Shown piece by piece: positions 1 to 46,349 of a DNA stretch of 64,000 nt. Each line of letters begins with the position of its first letter. The first letter of the stretch is position 1. The notes below the pieces were generated by a model that was given only the letters and a program-made list of their open reading frames with translations, searched no databases and had not been told where the DNA came from. The translations under genes were made by a program, and so were the position numbers. Source of the stretch: Sialis fuliginosa (taxonomy: Eukaryota; Arthropoda; Insecta; Megaloptera; Sialidae). The DNA is taken from the NCBI GenBank assembly GCA_961205875.1, contig OY540820.1, positions 8,122,001 through 8,186,000 on the forward strand. Reading direction: 5' to 3'.

Positions 1-2056
1 AAGATCTAAAATAAAGTCCGCGACACTATATGTCTAACTTTTATATTTAAGCCAGTGACTGCTTTTATGTTACAAAGAAAAGTAAAAATATTTGGGTTCT
101 GTTTACGTGGACTTATGACCTGCAAAACATTAATCCTTATCGAAATAATTTATTTCATCGTCATAAGTACTTAATGTAGATATAAATTGCCCTTTACAGC
201 ATCCAATTTGGTGTTTTGGTTTAGAAAATAACTTGAAATATACATACGGGAACATTATTCGCGCGAAATATGTAAAGAAGACCCGTATCGCGACGCGGGT
301 GTGTAGCAGAAGGGAGCGGTGTGTTCGGCCGGCATTTGTTTTCAATAATTAACTTTTTTGAAACAGAACAAAAATTATTTTTACTTTTTGTTCTGATTCG
401 TTTTTGTTTTAATTGTTGTTTGGTTTTTATTACAATAATAACTTATCGTGTTTGTACTTAATTCAATTATATATTTTTTAATCCTAAATAATAATTTCGT
501 AGTCCACGTGAGTGAAGCCGCGCGGGTCCAGCTATTCTATGTATAAAAAAAAAGTTTACATAAAATATAACTAATAAAAAATTAAATTTATTTTTGGCCA
601 ATAATAAAAACTTCTTGTCCACTGTGCACTGCTATATGGGTTTAACTTGAAATTACAATAATAGTTGATAGTCCCCACGTATAAGAATAACGGCTCCAAT
701 CTGTAATTACTTTAAGACAATAAATTAACGTTCGTGAGAAATACATCGGCGTATTGTAGTAACTAAGTTACATCAAGAAATTCTGCTTTCGTTACCAGTA
801 TCTAAACTTGTACCTAACTCCTGAATACAGTCATATAATCACCCTCTCCATCTAACCGCCCCGTTCTCACCCATACATATCCGGGTTTTGGAATAAAGCG
901 TATGTAAGCGAGTATAAATTCTGTCTGCTAGTTTTCGTAGAGAAAGAAAGCTCTAAAATTCTCCGTATATAAACGACAAGTTAATCTTTGAATAATTAAC
1001 TGTAGAGCGAATATTTAGTTTACTGTTTACAAGGTATTTTCATAGTTTGGCTAGTTGATAACAAAATATTTGAAGTTTAAAAAAATTCACGAAAGTATAG
1101 TAAATTATCGAAGAATTTTAGTAAATTACGTTATTAAATATGTGCCTGATTTTTTTATATTAAAAAAAAATTTTTTTTAACAAATTTCGTCTAATTAGCA
1201 TTTAAAATTTTAGAAAACAAATGGAGATATATCTTCGAAAGAAACATTTACCTACAAAAAATGGAGTTAAAAGAATTGAATGAACTACAAAAAAGATATT
1301 TTGAAAAATAAAATAACAAATTTGAGATATCGCATAATTTCTCCTCACACATGATTTTTATGTATTTTATATGTATAGGATAATCTACTAGACAGACTCG
1401 ACTAAAAAACCAGTTTTAATCAAAATCGGTTTAATGGTTCATGAGTTATGCAGTTAAATCAGAAATAGAGAGATCAAATATGTGGAAATTTTGAAATTGG
1501 AGAACAAAATTTTAATGCTTTCAGTATCGATCACATAGCTTCCCCTATCCTTCGGATATGGCGAGAACGGGATAATAAATATTAACATCGCTTGGGTTAT
1601 ATTGACGATAATAACCTCGGTACAAATCCTTAAAGAACAGTTATGTAATTTAACAATGCATTCGTAACAACCCGGCTATATCCGGAATAATAAAAACTCT
1701 TTTCTGCGGAGGGATCAAGGAGGCTTCATTACATCTGACACGTTCTTCTTACATGGCTCACTAGGATTAGATTAGATTTGTAACCGGCCAGAGGTTACTT
1801 ACAGAACAAAATACGAATGTTTTATTGCCCGCCTACTTGTTTTTTTCGTTTTATGTATCGATACTTTTTTTGATAAATCGTATTATGATATTGTTTCTTT
1901 GATGGATATGTTAGATTAAAGATACTCTAGTAAGAGTTATGACGGCATCGCCATTTTTAGCTGAAATGCGATTTATTAAAAAAATTATGTATGTGTTATT
2001 TTTAACAAGCATAAAAAATAAAATTAAAATTAAACATTATGTAATGATATGAAAAA
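1..2056. other. AT-rich sequence without a recognisable gene
   Basis: This stretch is AT-rich with many short poly-A and poly-T runs. Two short GC-richer spots stand out, at about 255-345 and 498-532. The second contains CACGTGAGTG, which resembles a splice donor or an E-box, but no coding frame supports an exon. Positions 1420-1575 hold a strongly decayed relative of the CGAGGAAGCA repeat family (GGTTCATGAGTTATGCAG is conserved). Positions 1917-1955 carry, on the minus strand, a motif related to GAACTCTTACTATGAGTATC, which recurs at 2865 and 42.19 kb. Confidence 0.5.
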
Positions 2057-2057
2057 A

Positions 2058-2820
2058 AACATCTTCCAAGTAAATGCACAGTGCTTTCTCGTGGCAAATT
2101 CACCAAATATAGTTAATTATTGAGCAATTTAAATAAAAACCGATAAAGTGCTCAGATAAATTACCTACAATTGATTAACCATTTAATTTTTATACAATTT
2201 TACTAAAAAATATTAGTTCGAAATTTTTTTAAGACGCACCTGATTATTTTTTTCGTATATTTTTAATTTTTTGTCAGTTTCAATCTAAATCTAAATTTAT
2301 GAATTGAAAACCTCAAAATGACATTTTATATGTCAAAGTAAATATCAATTTAAAAAAACAAAACACGATTTTTAAAAGCAAACTGAGATAAATCTTTGTA
2401 AGGGAATATTTTACAACAAACGTTGTAGACCCATATTATAGAAAATTTAATGCTCTACAAAAAAGATCCTATAAAATTTTTACGTAACATGTGTCATTCT
2501 TGAAATATCTTGAAAAAATAAATATTTTGGGATGTCACCCCTCCCCCTTACACACGATTTTGATGATTTTGAAATGGGACTCAACCATCCGACCAAATTT
2601 CAACAATATCGGTTCAGTAGTTCATGAGTTATGCATGTGACAAGAATTTATGGGACAAACACACACACAGACGGACAGACAGACAGACACGGGACGAAAA
2701 GTGTTTGTCTTGATGTGAAACGGAAAGATCAATTTAAAATTTTGAAATTGGAGGACATTTTTTTGTTTCAATCTAAAATGATCACAAAGCTTCTCGTATC
2801 TTCGATATTGCGAGGAAGCA
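2058..2820 (+). repeat. CGAGGAAGCA-family element, nearly complete copy
   Basis: This is the most complete of at least seven copies in the window. It starts with CATCTTCCAAGTAAATGCAC followed by TGCTTTCTCG and ends in ATTGCGAGGAAGCA. The end is the inverted complement of the TGCTTCCTCG found near the start of other copies, so the element has short terminal or subterminal inverted repeats. Inside are TTCATGAGTTATGC and a CAGACGGACAGACAGACAGA stretch shared by the other copies. The length is about 760 bp and no transposase frame is present. It is probably a non-autonomous DNA element; the superfamily is not clear from the ends. Confidence 0.7.
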
Positions 2821-3597
2821 ATACGGTTATGAGTGAGACTTGGCTACTACAATCAGGCTGTCAGAACTCTTACTATGAGTATCTATAGGTTAGGTAAGGT
2901 GATATTCCGACATCTACTCACTTTATTATTTTTAATCAAATTGACTCAAACTAAACATGAGAAATATGTTGGAATTGTGTTTGTATAATGAATTAACAAC
3001 AATTGAACTAAAAGTGACCCAAATTAGCTAAAATGAATTAGAATTAGAACAAAATCCATTAGTTTCCGGGTTTTGAATCAGCATCAAGCAGTTACATTAT
3101 TAAAAGCTTATCTCGGTAGAATTTGTTTTTGATGAATGCGTTTGAATCACTAGAGGATTAAGCAGTTCGATCCAACCATTAAAAGCTGTGTCGCTATTGA
3201 TAATGCTGATTGGGTAATACTCGAATTAATTTATTTTATCAGTTATCACAGATATTGTCGGATCATTATACTGATTCTATTTGTAATGAATACCTACTAT
3301 TCAATTGGCTTAAGAAAATTTTATCAATAGATGATTTAATTTGTATGTAATTAATGAGTTTAGTAGAATTTCTTGCAGTGTATCTGTTTTATTGATTTTT
3401 GAAAGAATAACTACACGGAGAAAACTAGGACTTAAGGAAAAATTACAATTCCTGAATAAAAATTTACAATCTGTATTGCAATAGTTTAGAGACTGATTGG
3501 GAAAATGTAAATATAAATTATAGAAAACATGGCAGTCTCTTTCTCTAATACTTTTTTAAGTTATATTATTTCTATATTTATATTATTTTCTGATTTT
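2821..3597. other. Spacer between two facing repeat copies
   Basis: AT-rich sequence with no gene. Just after the repeat lies GAACTCTTACTATGAGTATC (about 2865) followed by GGTAAGGTGATATTCCGACA. The latter recurs in slightly different form at 51.26 kb, so part of this spacer is itself repeated. Confidence 0.45.
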
Positions 3598-4180
3598 CGA
3601 ACCACAGAACCGATATTATTGAAACTTATTGTTAGTCGGATGGTTGGGTCTGGCTTGAGGACGGTCCCATTTCAAAATCATCAAAATCGTGTGTAAGGGG
3701 GAGGGGTGACACCCCAAAATATTTATTTTTTCAAGATATCTCAAGAACGACACATGTTACGTGAAAATTTTATAGAATATTTTTTGTTGAGCATTAAATT
3801 TCCTATAATATGGATCTACAACGTTTGTTGTTAAATATTCCCTTACAATGATTTATCTCAATTTATTTTTAAAAATCCTGTTTTGTTTTTTTACATTGAT
3901 ATTAGCTTGGACATATTAAATGTTATTTTGACGTTTGCATTTTAGATTTAGATTAAAATTGTCAAAAAATTAAAAATATACGAAAAAATAATCAGGTGCA
4001 TCTTAAGAAAAATTTCGAACTAATATTTTTTAGTAAAATTGTATAAAAATTAAATGGTTAACCAATTCTAAGCAATTTATCTGAGCATAGGTTTTTATTT
4101 AAATTGTTCAATAATAATTCATTATCTTTGGTGAATTAAGCACGAGGAAGCACTGTGCATTTACTTGGCAGATGATTTTT
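3598..4180 (-). repeat. CGAGGAAGCA-family element, truncated copy
   Basis: On the minus strand this copy begins with ATCTGCCAAGTAAATGCACA and TGCTTCCTCG (4142-4152), then runs through the same interior as the 2.06-2.82 kb copy. It stops in the AACCGATATTATTG region and lacks the CAGACGGACAG block and the far end. It faces the first copy about 780 bp away. Confidence 0.65.
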
Positions 4181-8375: not shown

Positions 8376-9127
8376 AAACATCTGCCAAGTAAATGCACAA
8401 TGCTTCCTCGTGCCAAATTCACCAAAAGTAGTTAATTATTGAACAATTTAAATAAAAACCGATAAAATGCTCAGATAAATTGCCTAGCATTGGTTAATTA
8501 ACCATTTAATTTTTATACAATTTTACTAAAAAATATTAGTTTGAAATTTTTCTTAAGACGTACCTACCTGATTATTTTTTCGTATATTTTTTATTTTTTG
8601 ACAATTTCAATTTGGATTGAAATTGTCAAAAAATAATTAATATACGAAAAAATAATCAGGTACGTCTTAAGAAAAATTTCAAACTAATATTTTTTAGTAA
8701 AATTGTATAAAAATTAAATGGTTAATTAACCAATGCTAGGCAATTATCATAAATTTTTGCAAACGTCAAAATGACATTGAAAATGTCAAAATGACACTTA
8801 ATATATCAAAGTAATGTCACCCCTCCCTCTTAAATACGATTTTGATAATTTTGAAATGATACCGTCCTCAAGATAGACTCAACCATATAACTAAGTTTCA
8901 ATAATATCGGTTCAGTGGTTCATGAGTTATGCGTGTGACAAGGATTCAGGGGACAGACACACGGACACACGGACGGACGGACAGACAGACAGGTACGGAA
9001 CGAAAAGTGTTTGTCTTAACGTGATACGGAAAGATCAATTTAAAATTTTGAAATCGGAGAACATTTTTTTTGTCTTATTCTGAAACGATCACAAAGCTTC
9101 TCGTATCTTTGATATTGCGAGGAAGCA
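8376..9127 (+). repeat. CGAGGAAGCA-family element with an internal fold-back
   Basis: The copy starts with ACATCTGCCAAGTAAATGCA then TGCTTCCTCG (8401-8410) and ends with CGAGGAAGCA (9118-9127), so both inverted ends are present. Unlike the other copies, part of the left half (about 8477-8607) is followed by its own inverted copy (about 8617-8750). The normal middle is missing. The rest, including TTCATGAGTTATGCGTG and the GGACGGACAGACAG block, is as in other copies. Confidence 0.75.
8477..8750. repeat. Inverted duplication inside the repeat
   Basis: The arms are about 130 bp each and run TTGCCTAGCATTGGTTAATT ... AATTAACCAATGCTAGGCAA, with a centre near 8613 and almost no loop. The arms match except for small indels such as an extra CTAC near 8566. 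It would extrude as a cruciform or fold as RNA. Confidence 0.8.
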
Positions 9128-28204: not shown

Positions 28205-29763
28205 AAATCTAAGGCGAGACTTTTTTCTTTCTGGACGAGACAAGACGAGAATGTCTGAAATTTATAAGTCTCGTCGTGAGACTTGGTTTTAAAAGATTTT
28301 TTAGAATAAGAAAAAAATTAAAAATATAAATCAACAAAATGTATAATATTCGTTAATTAATTATTTATTATACAGGATGATTCAGCACTGTCGTGCCAAA
28401 CTTGAACGGTACATCGAGAAAAATATTTTAAGCAGAAAACATTATATAAACATGTGTCCGGAAATTTGTCATGAGGGGGCTACAGCCCTCCAAAGATTTT
28501 ACTCAAAATTAGTTTTTATTTAATATCTGGAGACCCCATTGTACTAAAGTTATGAAATTTGATACAGGGTTTAGTATTAATAAGTGTTATCGATTTCCAG
28601 TATTGAACAATTATAATTTAGATCAGGGCTGTATGGGGCCAGTGGGCCCATCAATTTTTATCTAGTATTTTTTTGTTCTTTAATTTTTTCCTGAATTAGA
28701 CATTTGAATAAGATTGTATGGCACAAAATACACAAAAATATACTTTGCTCATTTATCATAGGATAAACCGTTTACGAGAAATATCGATGCAAAAGAAAGG
28801 ATGCAGAATTTTACTTAATACGGATGTTTCAAATTAAACAAAATAAATTTATATTTCTGTTCTTTGATTAAAGGTAAGAAAAAAGTTCATGTACATATAT
28901 CACCTAATACGTGTCCTCTTAGACCTATAGCCAGTTCTATTAATGTTGCAAGTAATTTACTAACATAACTAGAAAGCGATACTTAAAATGGCTATTTGTT
29001 GGTAAGGATGAATTTTTGGAGGTATATTTTTATTATTTTTTTTCTTATTTTTTATCATAGAACAAGAATATAAAATTATTTTTTGTAATTTGAAGCATCC
29101 GTATTAAGTAAAATTCTGCATCCTTTCTTTTGCATCGATATTTCTCGTAAACGGTTTATCCTATGATAAATGAGCAAAGTATATTTATGTGTATTTTGTG
29201 CCATACAATCTTATTCAAATGTCTAATTCAGGAAAAAATTAAAGAACAAAAAAATACTAGATAAAAATCGATAGGCCCACTGGCCCCATACAGCCCTGAT
29301 CTAAATTATAATTTTTCAATACTGGAAATCGATAACACTTATTAATACTAAACCCTGTATCAAATTTCATAACTTTAGTACAATGGAGTCTCCGGATATT
29401 AAATAAAAACTTATTTTGAATAAAATCTTTGGAGGGCTGTAGCCCCCTTACGAAAAATTTCCGGACACATGTTCATATAATGTTTTTTGCTTAAAATATG
29501 TCTCTTAATTTACTGTTCAAGTTTGGCACGACAGCACTGAATCACCCTGTATAGTAAATGGAAAAAAAAATTTTTTTAGTTAAAATTCACACGAGACCGA
29601 GAAGATGCGGATTTTTTTTCGAGACGAACCCGAGACGAGATAGCTTCTGTTTTCACGAGACAAAACTGAAATGAGATTATTACTTGAAAAATTCGAGACT
29701 AAGGCAAGATTTCAGTAACAAAAACCGAAACGAGACGAAACTAGCCTGTCTCTCGTCCCGTGT
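28205..29763. repeat. CGAGACGAGAC repeat split by a fold-back insertion
   Basis: Both sides of the 28.37-29.55 kb fold-back carry words such as GGACGAGACAAGACGAGA (left) and CGAGACGAACCCGAGACGAG (right), ending at TCTCGTCCCGTG near 29763. They look like two halves of one older element of roughly 380 bp into which the fold-back inserted. The outer ends are not precise. Confidence 0.5.
28371..29551. mobile_element. Fold-back element, TACAGGATGATTCAG ends (1181 bp)
   Basis: The ends TACAGGATGATTCAGC and GCACTGAATCACCCTGTA are inverted and flanked by TA. The arms are about 465 bp each (28371-28836 and 29086-29551) and about 95 percent identical by eye. They include the shared words ATCAGGGCTGTATGGGGCCA and TTTACGAGAAATATCGATGC. 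The loop is about 250 bp and AT-rich. There is no transposase. Transcription would give a long hairpin RNA. A diverged single arm lies at 30.39 kb. Confidence 0.85.
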
Positions 29764-32127
29764 ATAAGTAAGATCTTACTTAATAATACACATATTGTAC
29801 AGTTGATCTTCCCACTATAAAATAAGAATCCCACATTATTAGAAATATCAATGTTTTCTCTACAACAAGAATTACAGTTAATCTAACTGAATAAATTAAA
29901 TAAAACAAATTTATTTACCTATAGTAAAATATAAAATTTTATATACCGATATATATCATATAGGAAATAGCCAACCCACATGTGATCAGGTATCGCCAAA
30001 AAGGCAAAACGTGATTACCAAACAACGGTTAGTATATAAACATATTCCTTATTTGATTAGTGATGTGAAGTAATTTCTACAGCGTGGGGTATAGTACCTG
30101 TTAGTTTAACCCCACACTAACTGGTCGAGATGAAATAAAAATGTAATTATAAGTAACAGTAGTTTTATATAAGAATTGATTCTGTTTTTTTCAAAAATGT
30201 CATAAGGTCATTGTGCCTATCTATAGAACGCATTTTTGTATACATATATGAAAAGGTTATAAAACCTATTATATTTCATAGATTGTGATGTATAAAAGAA
30301 AAAAATGGATGAGTTTTTTAAGAATATACATTATATTATAGTTTGAAAAATTACCTTTTTTAAAATATTGTTGTTTTTTGTGTATAATATACAGGATGAT
30401 TTATAACGAATGTAAAAAGTCGATCGATGTTATTTTAAACAAAAAAACTTTATATGGACATAGGTATGTCCGAAAATTCTTCTTTAGAGAGCTGCAGCAC
30501 TGATTTTTTTAAATTTAATATCTTGACAGTCGGTTTACAATTAGTATTTGTAAGTATTATCGATTTTCAGTATCAATCAATATTTTCATTTAAAAATCTA
30601 ACAAAAACATATCCTCAATCCATGAGTTAATTGTTGTTAAATTGCTGCTGTAAACTATAAATTAAAAACGCTGTATGCTAATCTTTATACTAACTACACC
30701 CTTATCACGAATCACTCAAAATTACATAAAAAATCACTTATTTACATTTGCGGAAACAAAACATTAACATTCAACTTGTCAAGAAAAACAATATAGCCGA
30801 TATGCAATGAAGTTAGGCGCCTATCGCACGGTGTCGCCATTAAAGAAATCAGAAAACTATATTTCGAGAAATAAGGGTGGACCAATTTAGCGAATGGTCC
30901 AATATACCATACTTTTCCTTAATAAGTAAGTGTAATATCGAAATAATACTAAATAATTTTGAAAATTAAGTTTTATTAATTACTGCCGCTATAATTTCGC
31001 AATTAATTATTATAAAAGCATAGAAATCGTCAGTGATTTATATCAAAATGATAAATAACTTATATAATTGGATAGCCGGCTGAACTGCGGTATATTAAAT
31101 TTAATAAATCATAATGAGAACAATAAAATTTACTTAATATTATATTAAAACGACGTTTTCAAAAACGGGGTTTGAAAGTGAAACGTATATATGTGTATAT
31201 AAGGTACTAGCAAAAGCCTTGGATTATTCCCCAGTGTTGTTTAATTTTTTTTTAAATTTTTCATTTTACATGTTCAGTAAAAATTTCACTTTTCTAGCCC
31301 ACCAATCCCAAAAAACAGTATACTTTGCTCTTAAAGCGGCCATGATTGGTGCCAGTTCCTTTTTTAATTAAAGAATTTCGTAAAATTATGAAATTATTTA
31401 TTTCTTTGCTTAAGACACGCTTTGGGATAACCAATCAAGCGTTTATTTTTTTAAATATATAATAGTTATGTCATGATTTCGATGCGGTTTTCTATGATTA
31501 AATGATTTGTAATATTTATTATTAGATTTCTTTACTTTTTATGGTATAATCTAAATTTTTTTATAACTGTACAATTACTATATTTATATAATAAATTGTT
31601 TTTATACGTACTCACATACTATTGCTGTTTTAAAGAATTGAGTTTTCTTACCTGTAACAAAAAAAGAAAATTATTAGATTATGTATGCGTCAAAAAATAT
31701 CTATCAATTCTGAGTTGACACGAAAACACTGTACCGATTTTGATGGAACTTTCACCGTATGAAAGCCACAGGCTATATATTAGCTTAAGATTATATGATA
31801 TTTGAATTAAGGCAGGCCTATAGTGAGGAAATTTACAATTTATACTTCTAAATAATTATATTTAAATTTAAATCTGAATCTGATATTTTTATCGTATCCA
31901 CGGACGTCAGCAGAAGGGGAAGGAGCAAATAGAAAAAAAATATTGACGTAATTATTTGTCAACAAGCTTTACTCCCCATGTGAAAATTTCTGCAGACGCC
32001 CATGCTCTTACCCTTATTAATTAATGTATATACTTAACAATTAACAATAACTTACCAGCTGTATCAAATTTTAAATAAAAAATAATTATTATTCAAAACA
32101 AGAATATTTTTGTAAAAAGTATAAATT
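29764..32127. other. AT-rich spacer with repeat fragments
   Basis: No gene seen. Positions 30390-30600 are a diverged single arm of the TACAGGATGATT fold-back family (TACAGGATGATTTATAACG; TATTATCGATTTTCAGTAT). Positions 31300-31370 are a fragment of the AGGTACTGGCACCAG family on the minus strand (GCGGCCATGATTGGTGCCAG). Positions 31898-32000 carry ends of the GGCGTCCGCAG repeat (GGACGTCAGCAGAAGGGG and TTTCTGCAGACGCCC). Confidence 0.45.
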
Positions 32128-32716
32128 TTTTTTTTCGGTCCCATTGACCTATGTTTTAGTTTTGGATCAAAAATTAACTGTCCAAAAATTTCAGACTCAT
32201 AGATAAAATTTGTGGACGGCGCAAACCAAGTATTTTTCCCATTTGATTAACATGGGAAAAATTACTTTTATACTTACACGTGAATATCTCGTTGAAAAAA
32301 TATTTTTTTGAAAATTTCTCAGAACAATATTTTGTAGAGAATTAAGTGCACAATTCATAAATCCAATAAATTTTAAGAAATGTTTGTTTAAAAATTATCA
32401 TAAAAATTGGATTTTACTTTTTATGATAATGTTTAAACGAACATATCTTTAAAAATACCCGATCTATGAATTGAGCACTTTGGGATCTTTTTTGTAAGAA
32501 ATTTAATTCTCTATGATATGTTGCTGTAAAAAATTAAAATAAATAAATGTTTCAACGAGATATTCACGCATAAGTAAAAAAGTAATTTTTCCCATGTTAA
32601 TCAAATGGGAAAAAGACTCGGTTTGCGCCGTCCACAGGTTTGATCTATGAGTCTGAAATTTTGGGACAGTTAATTTTTGATCCAAAGCTAAAACATAGGC
32701 CAATGGGACCGAAAAA
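32128..32716. repeat. Fold-back repeat, about 0.59 kb
   Basis: The left arm begins TTCGGTCCCATTGACCTATG and the right arm ends with its complement, followed by AAAAGACACCCTAG, which probably marks the true end of the family. The arms of about 200-280 bp share GTGGACGGCGCAAACC, CCCATTTGATTAACATGGGA and GAATATCTCGTTGAAA. The centre is near 32422. It has no coding region. Confidence 0.8.
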
Positions 32717-33562
32717 ATAAAATAAAAGACACCCTAGACTACACACATTAGTCAAGAAATAATGAAGATTTTATTACGACAAATGAACCTCGAAAACCAT
32801 TTATTTAAAAAATCCTGTCACAGCATTATTTTTATTTGTGAAGAGAGAAATTGACAGGTTCGTGTCTCATCACGATGAAGACAGCAGCGGTGTAGTAAAT
32901 TGATGTGCTCATCGGTGCATTACTTGCCGCATTAAGAACATACCCGATCGGTTTCGGTTTTATGCTTAAACGATTCATATTGATTAAGAGCGAGATGATA
33001 TGAGATTATTATTAAAAACAGATATATGATACTAGATGTCTGGGCAAGGTTGATTTATTCAGGGGTGGTTAAGGGTTGTATTCCTTTAATTTTATTTTCA
33101 CTAAAACAAATTGTTTATAAATAAAAAATATTGTTTTATTATAAATTGTTATATTGTTTTGGCTGAATTATATTTATTTCAAACAGTTAGGGACCATTTC
33201 AGTATGGAAATTGATGATTTTCATGATTTGTGATATTTTGTTTTACTTTTATTTTTTATCTAATTTTTTTGGTCACTGCAAAAGTCCTACTCCTCCAAAA
33301 ATTGTCTGAAAGAAAAACACCAAAAAGAATGAAAAACTGTAGAGGCATTGGGAGGATTTTTTTTCCTATTGAAATCTAACAAAATGGCGGCCATTTCAAA
33401 ATTGTCAAATTTGGCCTTTTTTTCGACAGAGTTTCGTTTAAAAAAATGTGAAATTTTTAAATAAAAAACTCTTCGTTTAAAATTCTTCCACCGTTTTAAA
33501 AAATGTCGCATCGAGAAAAACGCGTTTAAAGTTTCAAGTACGAGATTTTCATATGATCAATC
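32717..33562. other. AT-rich spacer with a possible regulatory patch
   Basis: No gene seen. Positions 32845-33000 are GC-richer and match no recognised repeat; they contain TTGACAGGT (TGACAG is a TALE homeodomain-type site) and CATCGGTGCATTACTTGCCG. A regulatory role is only a suggestion. Confidence 0.3.
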
Positions 33563-44125: not shown

Positions 44126-44138
44126 GGAGGTAGGAACG

Positions 44139-46243
44139 GCGCACAGTGGGTCTAAATCACACTTTTTTGCGCGAAATTTCGCTTCAAGCCAATTTTCAAC
44201 CAATTTTAATAAAGTCAGTGGCATTTGAAAGGTAAATAGTTGTAGTTTCTGAAAATTACCCCAAGAATAGTCAATTCACCCTCTTAATTATTGTTTCATC
44301 CCCTTAAATCTGAAAATTCGATTAAACGATAAATTCATAAATTAATAAATCGAATCAGATAATATATTCTGCACAAATATAAATATCTATTTGTTAGTAC
44401 TATTATATAGTATGTGTAAACATGTGTGAACATATTTTAATATATACAGGGTGAGTCATAAGTTCGTATTTCTTCGATATCTCCTCTGTTAATAATTAGA
44501 GAAAAATTTTAATTTTGAATGATATTATAAGTAATAATACACATCTAAACTTATATTAAAATATATAGTGTGACCCCGAAAAAGGTGTATCATTACAGGG
44601 TGAGTTGATAGTGCGTGTATCTTCGATATCTCCTCTCTTTTACAAGATACAGAAAAAATTCAAATATTAGATAATACTAAAAGTATAAATGTACATTATA
44701 AGAATGTATTGAAATATACAGTGTGGCCCCGAAATAAGGTGTATCACAAATATAATGTATTTTTTAATGGGATGACCCATTTATTTCTACCTTATGTAAC
44801 TCTTGTTTAGAAGATCTATACAATATTTTTTAAAAACATTGAGGGGAAGGGGTATGATATAATTGTTTTTCTTAGTTGACGTTTTCAAACATTGTTTTGA
44901 AAAATCATTTTCGTTTTGGTGTGGCATTAGTTTAACCTAGACACCACTAGTAATCCATTAGAAATTTGTTTTATACAAGGTGCTTCTGAAAAAATTACAA
45001 TTATTCAAAAATTATATGTTACAAAACTATTTTTTAATGGAACAAAATATTTTTTTTTCATTAAGTATGTAATAGGTATTCGGTACACTACAACTTTTCA
45101 TGGCAGGTAAATCCTGCACCTAAAATAAATAAATATACTAAAATGCATACATTTTTTAGACACGAAGTGTTTATTTTTAAGCATAAAATCTAAGAGTTTT
45201 TTTTTCATAAATGTTTCATGTAATGTAAGTAATAAGCGTTTTTAGTATATTTATTTATTTTAGGTGCAGGATTTACCTGCCGTGAAAAGTTGTAGTGTAC
45301 CGAATACCTATTACATACTTAATGAAAAAAAAATATTTTGTTCCATTAAAAAATAATTTTGTAACATATAATTTTTAAATAATTGTAGTTTTTTCAGGAG
45401 CACCTTGTATAAAACAAATTTCTAATGGAGTACTAGTGGTGTCTAGGTTAAACTAATGCCACACCAAAACGAAAATGATTTTTCAAAACAATGTTTGAAA
45501 ACGTCAACTAAGAAAAACAATTATATCATACCCCTTCCCCTCAATGTTTTTAAAAAATATTGTATAGATCTTCTAAACAAGAGTTACATAAGGTAGAAAT
45601 AAATGGGTCATCCCATTAAAAAATACATTATATTTGTGATACACCTTATTTCGGGGCCACACTGTATATTTCAATACATTCTTATAATGTACATTTATAC
45701 TTTTAGTATTATCTAATATTTGAATTTTTTCTGTATCTTGTAAAAAGAGGAGATATCGAAGATACACGCACTATCAACTCACCCTGTAATGATACACCTT
45801 TTTCGGGGTCACACTATATATTTTAATATAAGTTTAGATGTGTATTATTACTTATAATATCATTCAAAATTAAAATTTTTCTCTAATTATTAACAGAGGA
45901 GATATCGAAGAAATACGAACTTATGACTCACCCTGTATATATTAAAATATGTTCACACATGTTTACACATACTATATAATAGTACTAACAAATAGATATT
46001 TATATTTGTGCAGAATATATTATCTGATTCGATTTATTAATTTATGAATTTATCGTTTAATCGAATTTTCAGATTTAAGGGGATGAAACAATAATTAAGA
46101 GGGTGAATTGACTATTCTTGGGGTAATTTTCAGAAACTACAACTATTTACCTTTCAAATGCCACTGACTTTATTAAAATTGGTTGAAAATTGGCTTGAAG
46201 CGAAATTTCGCGCAAAAAAGTGTGATTTAGACCCACTGTGCGG
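44139..46243. repeat. Giant near-perfect inverted repeat (2.1 kb)
   Basis: The left arm (about 44139-45146) and right arm (about 45236-46243) are reverse complements over about 1 kb. I count only about ten differences, most of them near the inner ends, so identity is about 99 percent. The loop is about 90 bases. The outer ends are CGCACAGTGGGTCTAAATC and its complement. Each arm contains two diverged tandem modules starting TACAGGGTGAGT (44445 and 44594 in the left arm). No target duplication and no coding frame were found. It is either a fold-back transposon with very long terminal repeats or a recent inverted duplication. Confidence 0.92.
44445..44752. repeat. Two tandem TACAGGGTGAGT modules in the left arm
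   Basis: The unit at 44445-44593 (TACAGGGTGAGTCATAAGTT ... GTGACCCCGAAAAAGGTGTA) is followed directly by a diverged second unit (TACAGGGTGAGTTGATAGTG ... GTGGCCCCGAAATAAGGTGT). Each is about 150 bp. Their mirror images lie at about 45630-45938. Confidence 0.75.
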
Positions 46244-46349
46244 CGGTGTCCCAAAAATTTTCTTTTTTTTTAAATATCTTAAGAATTAAATTGTAATTTT
46301 CTATAAAAATATATTACAATTTTTGTAGTAAAAATTTATTTTTCAAAGA

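Follow-up and report, generated by a model that had tools for sequence, protein, structure and literature searches.

The genome of Sialis fuliginosa contains a 2.1-kb palindrome that raises two questions: what kind of element it is, and how its arms have come to be nearly identical. It lies in a stretch of 64,000 nucleotides (the window; C12:8122001-8186000), in which a first-pass annotation made from the letters alone had reported a near-perfect inverted repeat of about 1 kb at 44139..46243. The annotation attributed the likeness of the arms to a recent event or to ongoing gene conversion between them, and proposed a hairpin-RNA (hpRNA) locus feeding the siRNA pathway. An exact alignment of the arms confirmed the inverted repeat. 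The palindrome spans 44142-46240 (2099 bp; Table 1), and its arms of 1002 and 1001 bp are 99.3% identical with seven differences, i.e., 997 identical columns out of 1004 (two of which are bases of the target-site duplication, TSD), six substitutions and a 1-base gap. The gap is at 44637 and the other differences are at 44953, 44985, 44995, 45006, 45027, and 45101. Six of the seven fall within the inner ~190 bp of the arms, in keeping with the annotated clustering near the centre, although their number had been put at roughly ten, and the loop at 90 bases instead of the 96 found (45144-45239). A search for inverted arms returned the pairs 44137-44640/45742-46245 (504 nt, 100%) and 44638-45143/45240-45745 (506 nt, 99%). 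The symmetry thus extends outside the TACAGGGTGAGT modules and into the flanks, as had been noted. These modules are two diverged tandem units per arm, 77% alike (44594-44746 and 44445-44592), and are present in the arms of most family copies compared as well.

Table 1. Parts of the palindromic element and its flanks, in window positions
Feature	Positions	Strand	Evidence
Left TSD copy, CGGCG (5 bp)	44137..44141		Identical flanks in 39 of 40 family copies, consensus CGNCG
Left arm (1002 bp), starting with the RSS-like heptamer CACAGTG	44142..45143	+	Arm alignment
Loop (96 bases), single-copy centre of the palindrome	45144..45239		Turning point as in the seven remaining members of the class
Right arm (1001 bp; reverse complement of the left one), with CACTGTG at its end	45240..46240	-	Arm alignment
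Right TSD copy, CGGCG	46241..46245		Identical flanks in 39 of 40 family copies
Tandem pair of TACAGGGTGAGT modules, ~150 bp each and 77% alike, within the left arm	44445..44746	+	Window self-match
Mirror-image pair of TACAGGGTGAGT modules in the right arm	45637..45937	-	Window self-match

Four of the seven arm differences (44985-45027 and 45356-45398) are C to T when read inwards along either arm and fall within 42 bp of arm sequence, a number too small to interpret. The window holds other palindromic DNA as well. A long self-palindrome at 28363-29559 (89%), whose ends TACAGGRTGATTCAG adjoin TA and which resembles the TACAGGGTGAGT modules, is perhaps a mariner-type foldback. More inverted repeats or self-palindromes, of 80-94%, are found at 2054-4180, 8474-8748, and 32125-32723, with AAATGCACAGTGC among the ends near 2054 and 4180.

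The outer edges of the palindrome are those of a transposon. The left edge reads ...AACGGCG followed by CACAGTGGGTC, and the right edge GACCCACTGTG followed by CGGCGGTG, so that the element starts with CACAGTG, ends with CACTGTG, and is flanked by a direct repeat of CGGCG. CACAGTG is the heptamer of the V(D)J recombination signal (RSS), and Transib transposons are relatives of the antibody-gene recombinase. A search for the 16-base end together with the TSD, with up to three mismatches, gave two matches in the window and none in 100 shuffles. Among 40 complete copies of the element read from the genome, 39 have identical 5-bp flanks with the consensus CGNCG, the exception being L065 (GGGTG/GGGCG). 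In all 39 TSDs, position 2 is G and position 4 is C, and 26 are exactly CGNCG. Of the 20 copies in the first set, 19 carry CACAGTG at either end, one end of L022 being CACGGTG; the second set of 20 was picked by its CACAGTG end and is excluded as a test of the termini. According to passages of the respective papers, CGNCG is a Transib insertion motif (PMC4735498), and Transib and RAG-like transposons have RSS-heptamer-like ends and 5-bp duplications (PMC7204232, PMC4411706). Drosophila hopper and transib2 are described with the target motif CCANTGG in a passage of PMC3276498, and CGNCG is thus not universal among Transibs. When the window flanks were joined with a single TSD, 22 of 40 scored genomic matches (two of the 40 being the window's own flanks) crossed the joint in one alignment, at 69-77% identity. 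The target site therefore existed beforehand, and the element was inserted into an older dispersed repeat.

The element belongs to a large family. In the 392 Mb searched (20 contigs), its 20-base terminus has at least 135 exact copies against none for a reversed-pattern control, a lower bound because one subfamily carries two substitutions in the 20-mer. These termini represent some 65 or more dispersed copies. The search for the ends that the first-pass annotation had proposed thus uncovered a repeated fold-back family; the annotation had also set a genome-wide family in which this is just one ordinary copy against its own hairpin reading, and that is what the 135 termini represent. Viral contigs gave no match to the exact terminus. 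A 571-base left-end query returned 404 candidate genomic matches; the 40 that were scored have 99-100% identity. The 40 complete copies comprise the window copy, 19 of the first 20 loci, and the 20 of the second set; L024 is left out, its recognizable left end being missing.

Structural classes were measured on 37 of the 40 copies, those with other DNA nested inside (L051-L053) being set aside. The window class has eight members (the window copy, L009, L010, L011, L012, L014, L018, and L019), with arms of 1002-1012 bp and loops of 92-115 bases. Arms of 976-992 bp and a 16-base loop characterize L017 and L061, and L016 has arms of ~1058 bp and a loop of 143. Two mutually identical palindromes of 3168 bp, L049 and L050 (arms of 1536 bp at 99.93%, loop of 96), occupy two sites with different TSDs, CGGCT and TGGCG. 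In an open-centre group, to which L013 and others belong, arms of ~860-910 bp, mostly 91-96% identical, enclose a single-copy centre of ~290-570 bp; L063, L065, and L067 have an open centre, yet their arms are 98.5-99.4% identical. Shorter copies with internal deletions complete the set (L025, L054-L057, and L059). Altogether, 13 of the 37 copies, that of the window included, are palindromes with arms of at least 988 bp and loops of at most 143. Since these 13 occupy unlinked positions and each is bordered by identical 5-bp flanks of its own, the palindrome is not a local accident of assembly. Divergence is low: the eight window-class copies differ by 0.1-1.25%, with 16-26 substitutions over ~2.1 kb separating the window copy from the other seven. 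L010 and L014 are separated by two substitutions, and L049 and L050 by none over 3168 bp.

Among 20 solo ends that were read, 6 match the family across the whole ~800 bp and 14 diverge earlier; 11 of the latter were examined for frames of more than 150 aa, and none was found. The family also has a near-palindromic miniature form of ~150 bp, L075, which is flanked by CGCCG at either end. In L058, three tandem 28-bp units (180-330), each consisting of a transposon end and a 5-bp CGGCG-like stretch, precede the left end and form an array of RSS-like ends. Nested elements are found in L052, which holds a copia-type element with a long frame, and in L053, which holds an insert of ~3 kb whose inverted ends measure 417 bp (88%) and whose two frames are 339 and 322 aa long.

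We found no coding frame in the window element. Likewise, 20 family copies contain no frame of more than 91 aa, and in 18 of the 20 copies of another set there is none of 120 aa or more, the remaining two carrying nested elements. The genome does have candidate transposases. A search with the RAG1 Pfam profile returned nothing at the default threshold, and the weak matches at E ≤ 10 led to two families, Transib-1 (33 of 35 rows) and Transib-2 (2 of 35; L041 and L042, with the end CACTGTGGAAAATGG). Transib-1 is present at 33 loci with open frames of 461-904 aa. Its protein matches PDB 6pqn ("putative DNA-mediated transposase"), which we take to be moth HzTransib, with E = 1.3e-105, and it matches the RAG1 Pfam model above its cut-off. 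The 10 Transib-1 copies read have CACAGTG ends, and 9 have identical 5-bp flanks; the heptamer and the TSD type are thus common to Transib-1 and the window element, but the subterminal sequence is not. The ends of the window element occur in neither Transib-1 nor Transib-2. A query with the Transib-2 C terminus gave 89 genomic matches, including further families with frames of 680, 746, and 496 aa. The boundary of the 680-aa family is visible in three copies, and four 3′-flank stretches read from these further families contain neither CACAGTG nor CACTGTG. No transposase-coding element with the CACAGTGGGTC end was found among the Transib families read. From the 89 matches, 71 Transib positions were taken, none of which lies within 35 kb of the 124 listed family ends, a comparison that covers the listed ends and not subfamily ends outside those lists; L020 ends ~2.6 kb from a Transib-2 match at C6:5305848, which is outside the element.

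Transib-1 itself shows two peculiarities. The 10 copies read (e.g., L037-L040 and L043-L048) are 99.3-100% identical to L037 in shared DNA, and the family occupies 33 loci; autonomous Transibs usually have one or few copies, according to a passage of PMC4411706. Two 4.18-kb copies (L040:1201-5385 and L047:1226-5410) have a 904-aa frame that combines a "Mutator-like transposase" domain, PF20700 (residues 71-421; E = 1.3e-67 for the L040 frame), with a Transib/RAG1-like part (442-853), and PF20700 is absent from the frames of two shorter Transib-1 copies tested. This looks like the in-frame capture of a second transposase domain by Transib-1, which would have been mobilized later.

We also considered candidates for an autonomous relative within the family. 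The longer copies (5.3-6.5 kb, and the middle of the 4.0-kb one) turned out to be ordinary-looking copies with foreign DNA nested inside (L051, L052, L053, and L093), and the 3168-bp copies are longer palindromes rather than coding elements. Pairs of ends 2.7-4.2 kb apart (C2:7565712, C14:692025, and C4:33532702) have no Transib match nearby among the 89. As no Transib among those read has the CACAGTGGGTC end, mobilization in trans is deduced from the ends and the target: a Transib-type, RAG1-like transposase would recognize the ends and cut and paste the element.

These features allow the element to be placed provisionally. It may be assigned to the Transib superfamily by its TSD (5 bp in 39 of 40 copies), its CGNCG-like target (G2 and C4 in 39 of 39, other Transibs using other motifs), and its CAC-starting, RSS-heptamer-like termini (19 of 20 copies), not by a transposase of its own. 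Neither a RAG1/Transib-type gene in the element nor an autonomous relative with matching ends was found, as expected for a non-autonomous member. Its architecture is that of a foldback (FB-like) element, in which long terminal inverted repeats (TIRs) form most of the element (1002 + 1001 of 2099 bp) around a short middle. MITEs are short elements with short TIRs, a class that does not fit a 2.1-kb element, although the ~150-bp derivative L075 exists. The family joins a foldback architecture with Transib-type ends and target. No paper linking Transib with foldback elements was among the matches listed, which does not establish its absence from the literature.

How did the palindrome arise? Positions 1-1002 of the window copy match L013 1-1003 at 97%, and positions 1011-2099 match the reverse complement of L013 1092-1, again at 97%. 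The window class thus derives from an ancestor resembling the open-centre copies, one end of which was duplicated in inverted orientation with the turning point in the centre. The ancestor would have been an older, less symmetric family member with arms of ~880 bp and a single-copy centre of a few hundred bp, in which a strand may have folded back so that the same end was recopied and a short loop was left. Inverted duplications have been described as arising through foldback priming at hairpins or breaks (PMC7467729, PMC10622511), and we infer that such priming acted here. The turning point of L049 is elsewhere, around L013 697-795, and hence at least two separate foldback events have occurred in the family. 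For the window class, a single event is indicated by an inherited one-arm difference: at arm position 968, seven of the eight copies (the window copy included) differ between their arms, with C always on the same side of the loop and T on the opposite side, L009 having T in both. In addition, the turning point is the same in all eight members, with a filler AATRCAT next to it that is missing from L013, L063, and L067. An extra 16-base direct-repeat unit is found at the turning point in seven of the eight, the window copy being without it.

Changes that arose after this event reveal exchange between the arms. We scored variants in the eight class members against the majority of seven open-centre copies, with the alignment edge (position 985) excluded. 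Sixteen derived changes occupy both arms in a subset of the members, at positions 58, 350, 365, 518, 527, 542A, 595, 605, 624, 699, 729, 732, 753, 907, and 924 (the outgroup itself being mixed or gapped at 729, 732, and 907) and as an 8-bp deletion at 678-685. The deletion, T732G, and G924T are private to the window copy among the eight. The deletion was found only in that copy's two arms among 74 arms of 37 copies, the left arm of L058 showing neither form at this site. A further 26 changes are one-arm singletons, the outgroup being polymorphic for several of them. Some variants occur in both states: change 527 is in one arm of L011 and in both arms of L010, L012, L014, and L019, and change 699 is in one arm of L018 and in both arms of L009. 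Without transfer, a mutation that occurred a single time in one arm would not come to stand in both, and the both-arm changes are therefore evidence for conversion after the palindrome had formed. An end-to-inward conversion gradient, considered because the differences of the window copy cluster centrally, was not supported, since 20 of the 26 one-arm and 13 of the 16 both-arm changes share a bias towards the inner half.

A wider comparison of arms covered 29 of the 40 copies, leaving out L025, L050-L057, L059, and L061 (short, nested, duplicate, or unsuited). In 12 of the 29 copies, each arm has its own partner as strict nearest neighbour, and in 16 the partner is nearest or tied; 2000 random pairings gave on average 0.23 such copies and never more than 3 (strict), or 0.43 and never more than 4 (nearest or tied). 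In an arm tree, the two arms of one copy form their own fork in 14 of the 29. Homogenization is not universal: another arm is nearer than the copy's own partner in 13 copies, the arms of L064 and L066 (~91%) pair by side instead of by copy, L023 and L058 look chimeric, and the remaining copies beyond the forks and the side-pairing are unresolved or mixed.

With its CACAGTG ends, its CGNCG-type TSD, its position in an older repeat, its near-identical copies, its lack of a frame, and Transib genes elsewhere in the genome, the window element is very probably a recently inserted, non-autonomous Transib-type foldback transposon of single foldback origin with later conversion between its arms. Both halves of the annotated alternative are supported, a recent event because the eight class copies differ so little, and arm-to-arm conversion because the both-arm changes are limited to single copies or subgroups within the class. 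The arms would have been recopied onto each other by gene conversion or break repair, and repeated recopying would keep them ~99% identical while the copies drift apart.

Other explanations of the identical arms must be weighed. Each copy or subgroup might have been made palindromic anew, from one arm that had already mutated. The family did make different palindromes more than once (the 3168-bp and the window class), and the window junction, without the 16-base unit of the other seven, is not fully identical to theirs. This scenario is nevertheless improbable given the one turning point and the filler in all eight copies, together with the same-side difference at position 968 in seven of them, for which a single origin followed by arm transfer was judged simpler. 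We give little credence to an artefact of assembly or polishing, by which reads of the two arms were mixed and real one-arm differences written into both. Arms so alike are difficult to polish, and all the evidence comes from assembled sequence, but the 26 one-arm singletons persist in the eight copies, five both-arm variants (365, 527, 605, 624, and 907) are common to unlinked copies, and 39 of 40 sites bear out the family and its TSDs. Youth alone, i.e., recent amplification of a perfect palindrome whose arms are too young to have diverged, is very unlikely. It would suit the near-identity of L049 with L050 and of L010 with L014, but the 16 both-arm changes in some class copies cannot come from single mutations without conversion, and own arms group above chance across the family; it is already contradicted, unless the both-arm states are artefacts of assembly. 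Finally, although a 1-kb arm pair at 99.3% would form long double-stranded RNA if transcribed, a dedicated hpRNA locus, with siRNAs that regulate host genes and hence arms kept identical, is extremely improbable and finds no support, because the transposon family explains the anatomy of the palindrome: the copies are many, dispersed, and flanked by TSDs, the both-arm changes vary between them, and among window self-matches of at least 150 bp the arms pair with nothing but one another and the modules within them, with no host gene.

Conversion between the arms may also take place within the element's own transposition cycle, RAG1/Transib-type excision followed by repair recopying the arms and sometimes making longer palindromes, a tentative extension that we regard as rather unlikely.

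The family resembles Transib elements (HzTransib, hopper, and transib2) in its CAC-starting, RSS-heptamer-like ends and 5-bp TSD. It also shares the CGNCG target reported in part of PMC4735498, and RAG1-like transposases are encoded in the genome; Drosophila hopper and transib2 differ in their CCANTGG target (PMC3276498, in part). It differs from Transib in that no transposase was found inside the window element, which is almost wholly palindromic, with arms of ~1 kb, and up to 1.5 kb in the family. TIRs of Transib-like and RAG-like elements measure ~13-15 bp in the passages concerned of PMC4411706 and PMC7204232. Galileo, a Drosophila foldback element of the P superfamily, is closer in architecture: a portion of PMC3573991 describes TIRs of 18 to 1,250 bp that are 98-100% identical within copies, extension of the TIRs by recruitment of internal sequence, and chimeric copies, features like those of the window family; the authors of that paper propose recombination and conversion. 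Galileo belongs to another superfamily, and the comparison covers architecture; by this analogy, the window element may behave as a Galileo-like foldback element whose TIRs are extended and exchange sequence. Tetris and other Mutator-type foldbacks are likewise non-autonomous, with internal tandem repeats and a mobilizer that was not found, but Tetris has TSDs of 8-10 bp, against 5 bp here, and its authors assign it to Mutator (PMC4079207, in part). In sex-chromosome palindromes, gene conversion holds arm identity above 99%, as an extract of PMC8981503 reports; these are chromosomal structures and not mobile elements, unlike the window family.

Transib-type ends and target on a foldback family fit the view that long inverted repeats have originated convergently. 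They also carry a warning: near-perfect inverted repeats of 1 kb in animal genomes are not necessarily hpRNA loci. With many natural insertions, one turning point, and copy-specific both-arm changes, arm conversion in a mobile palindrome becomes directly measurable, and the set includes a variant caught half-way between the one-arm and the both-arm state. If homogenization does occur within the transposition cycle, the family would behave as a mobile, self-correcting palindrome.
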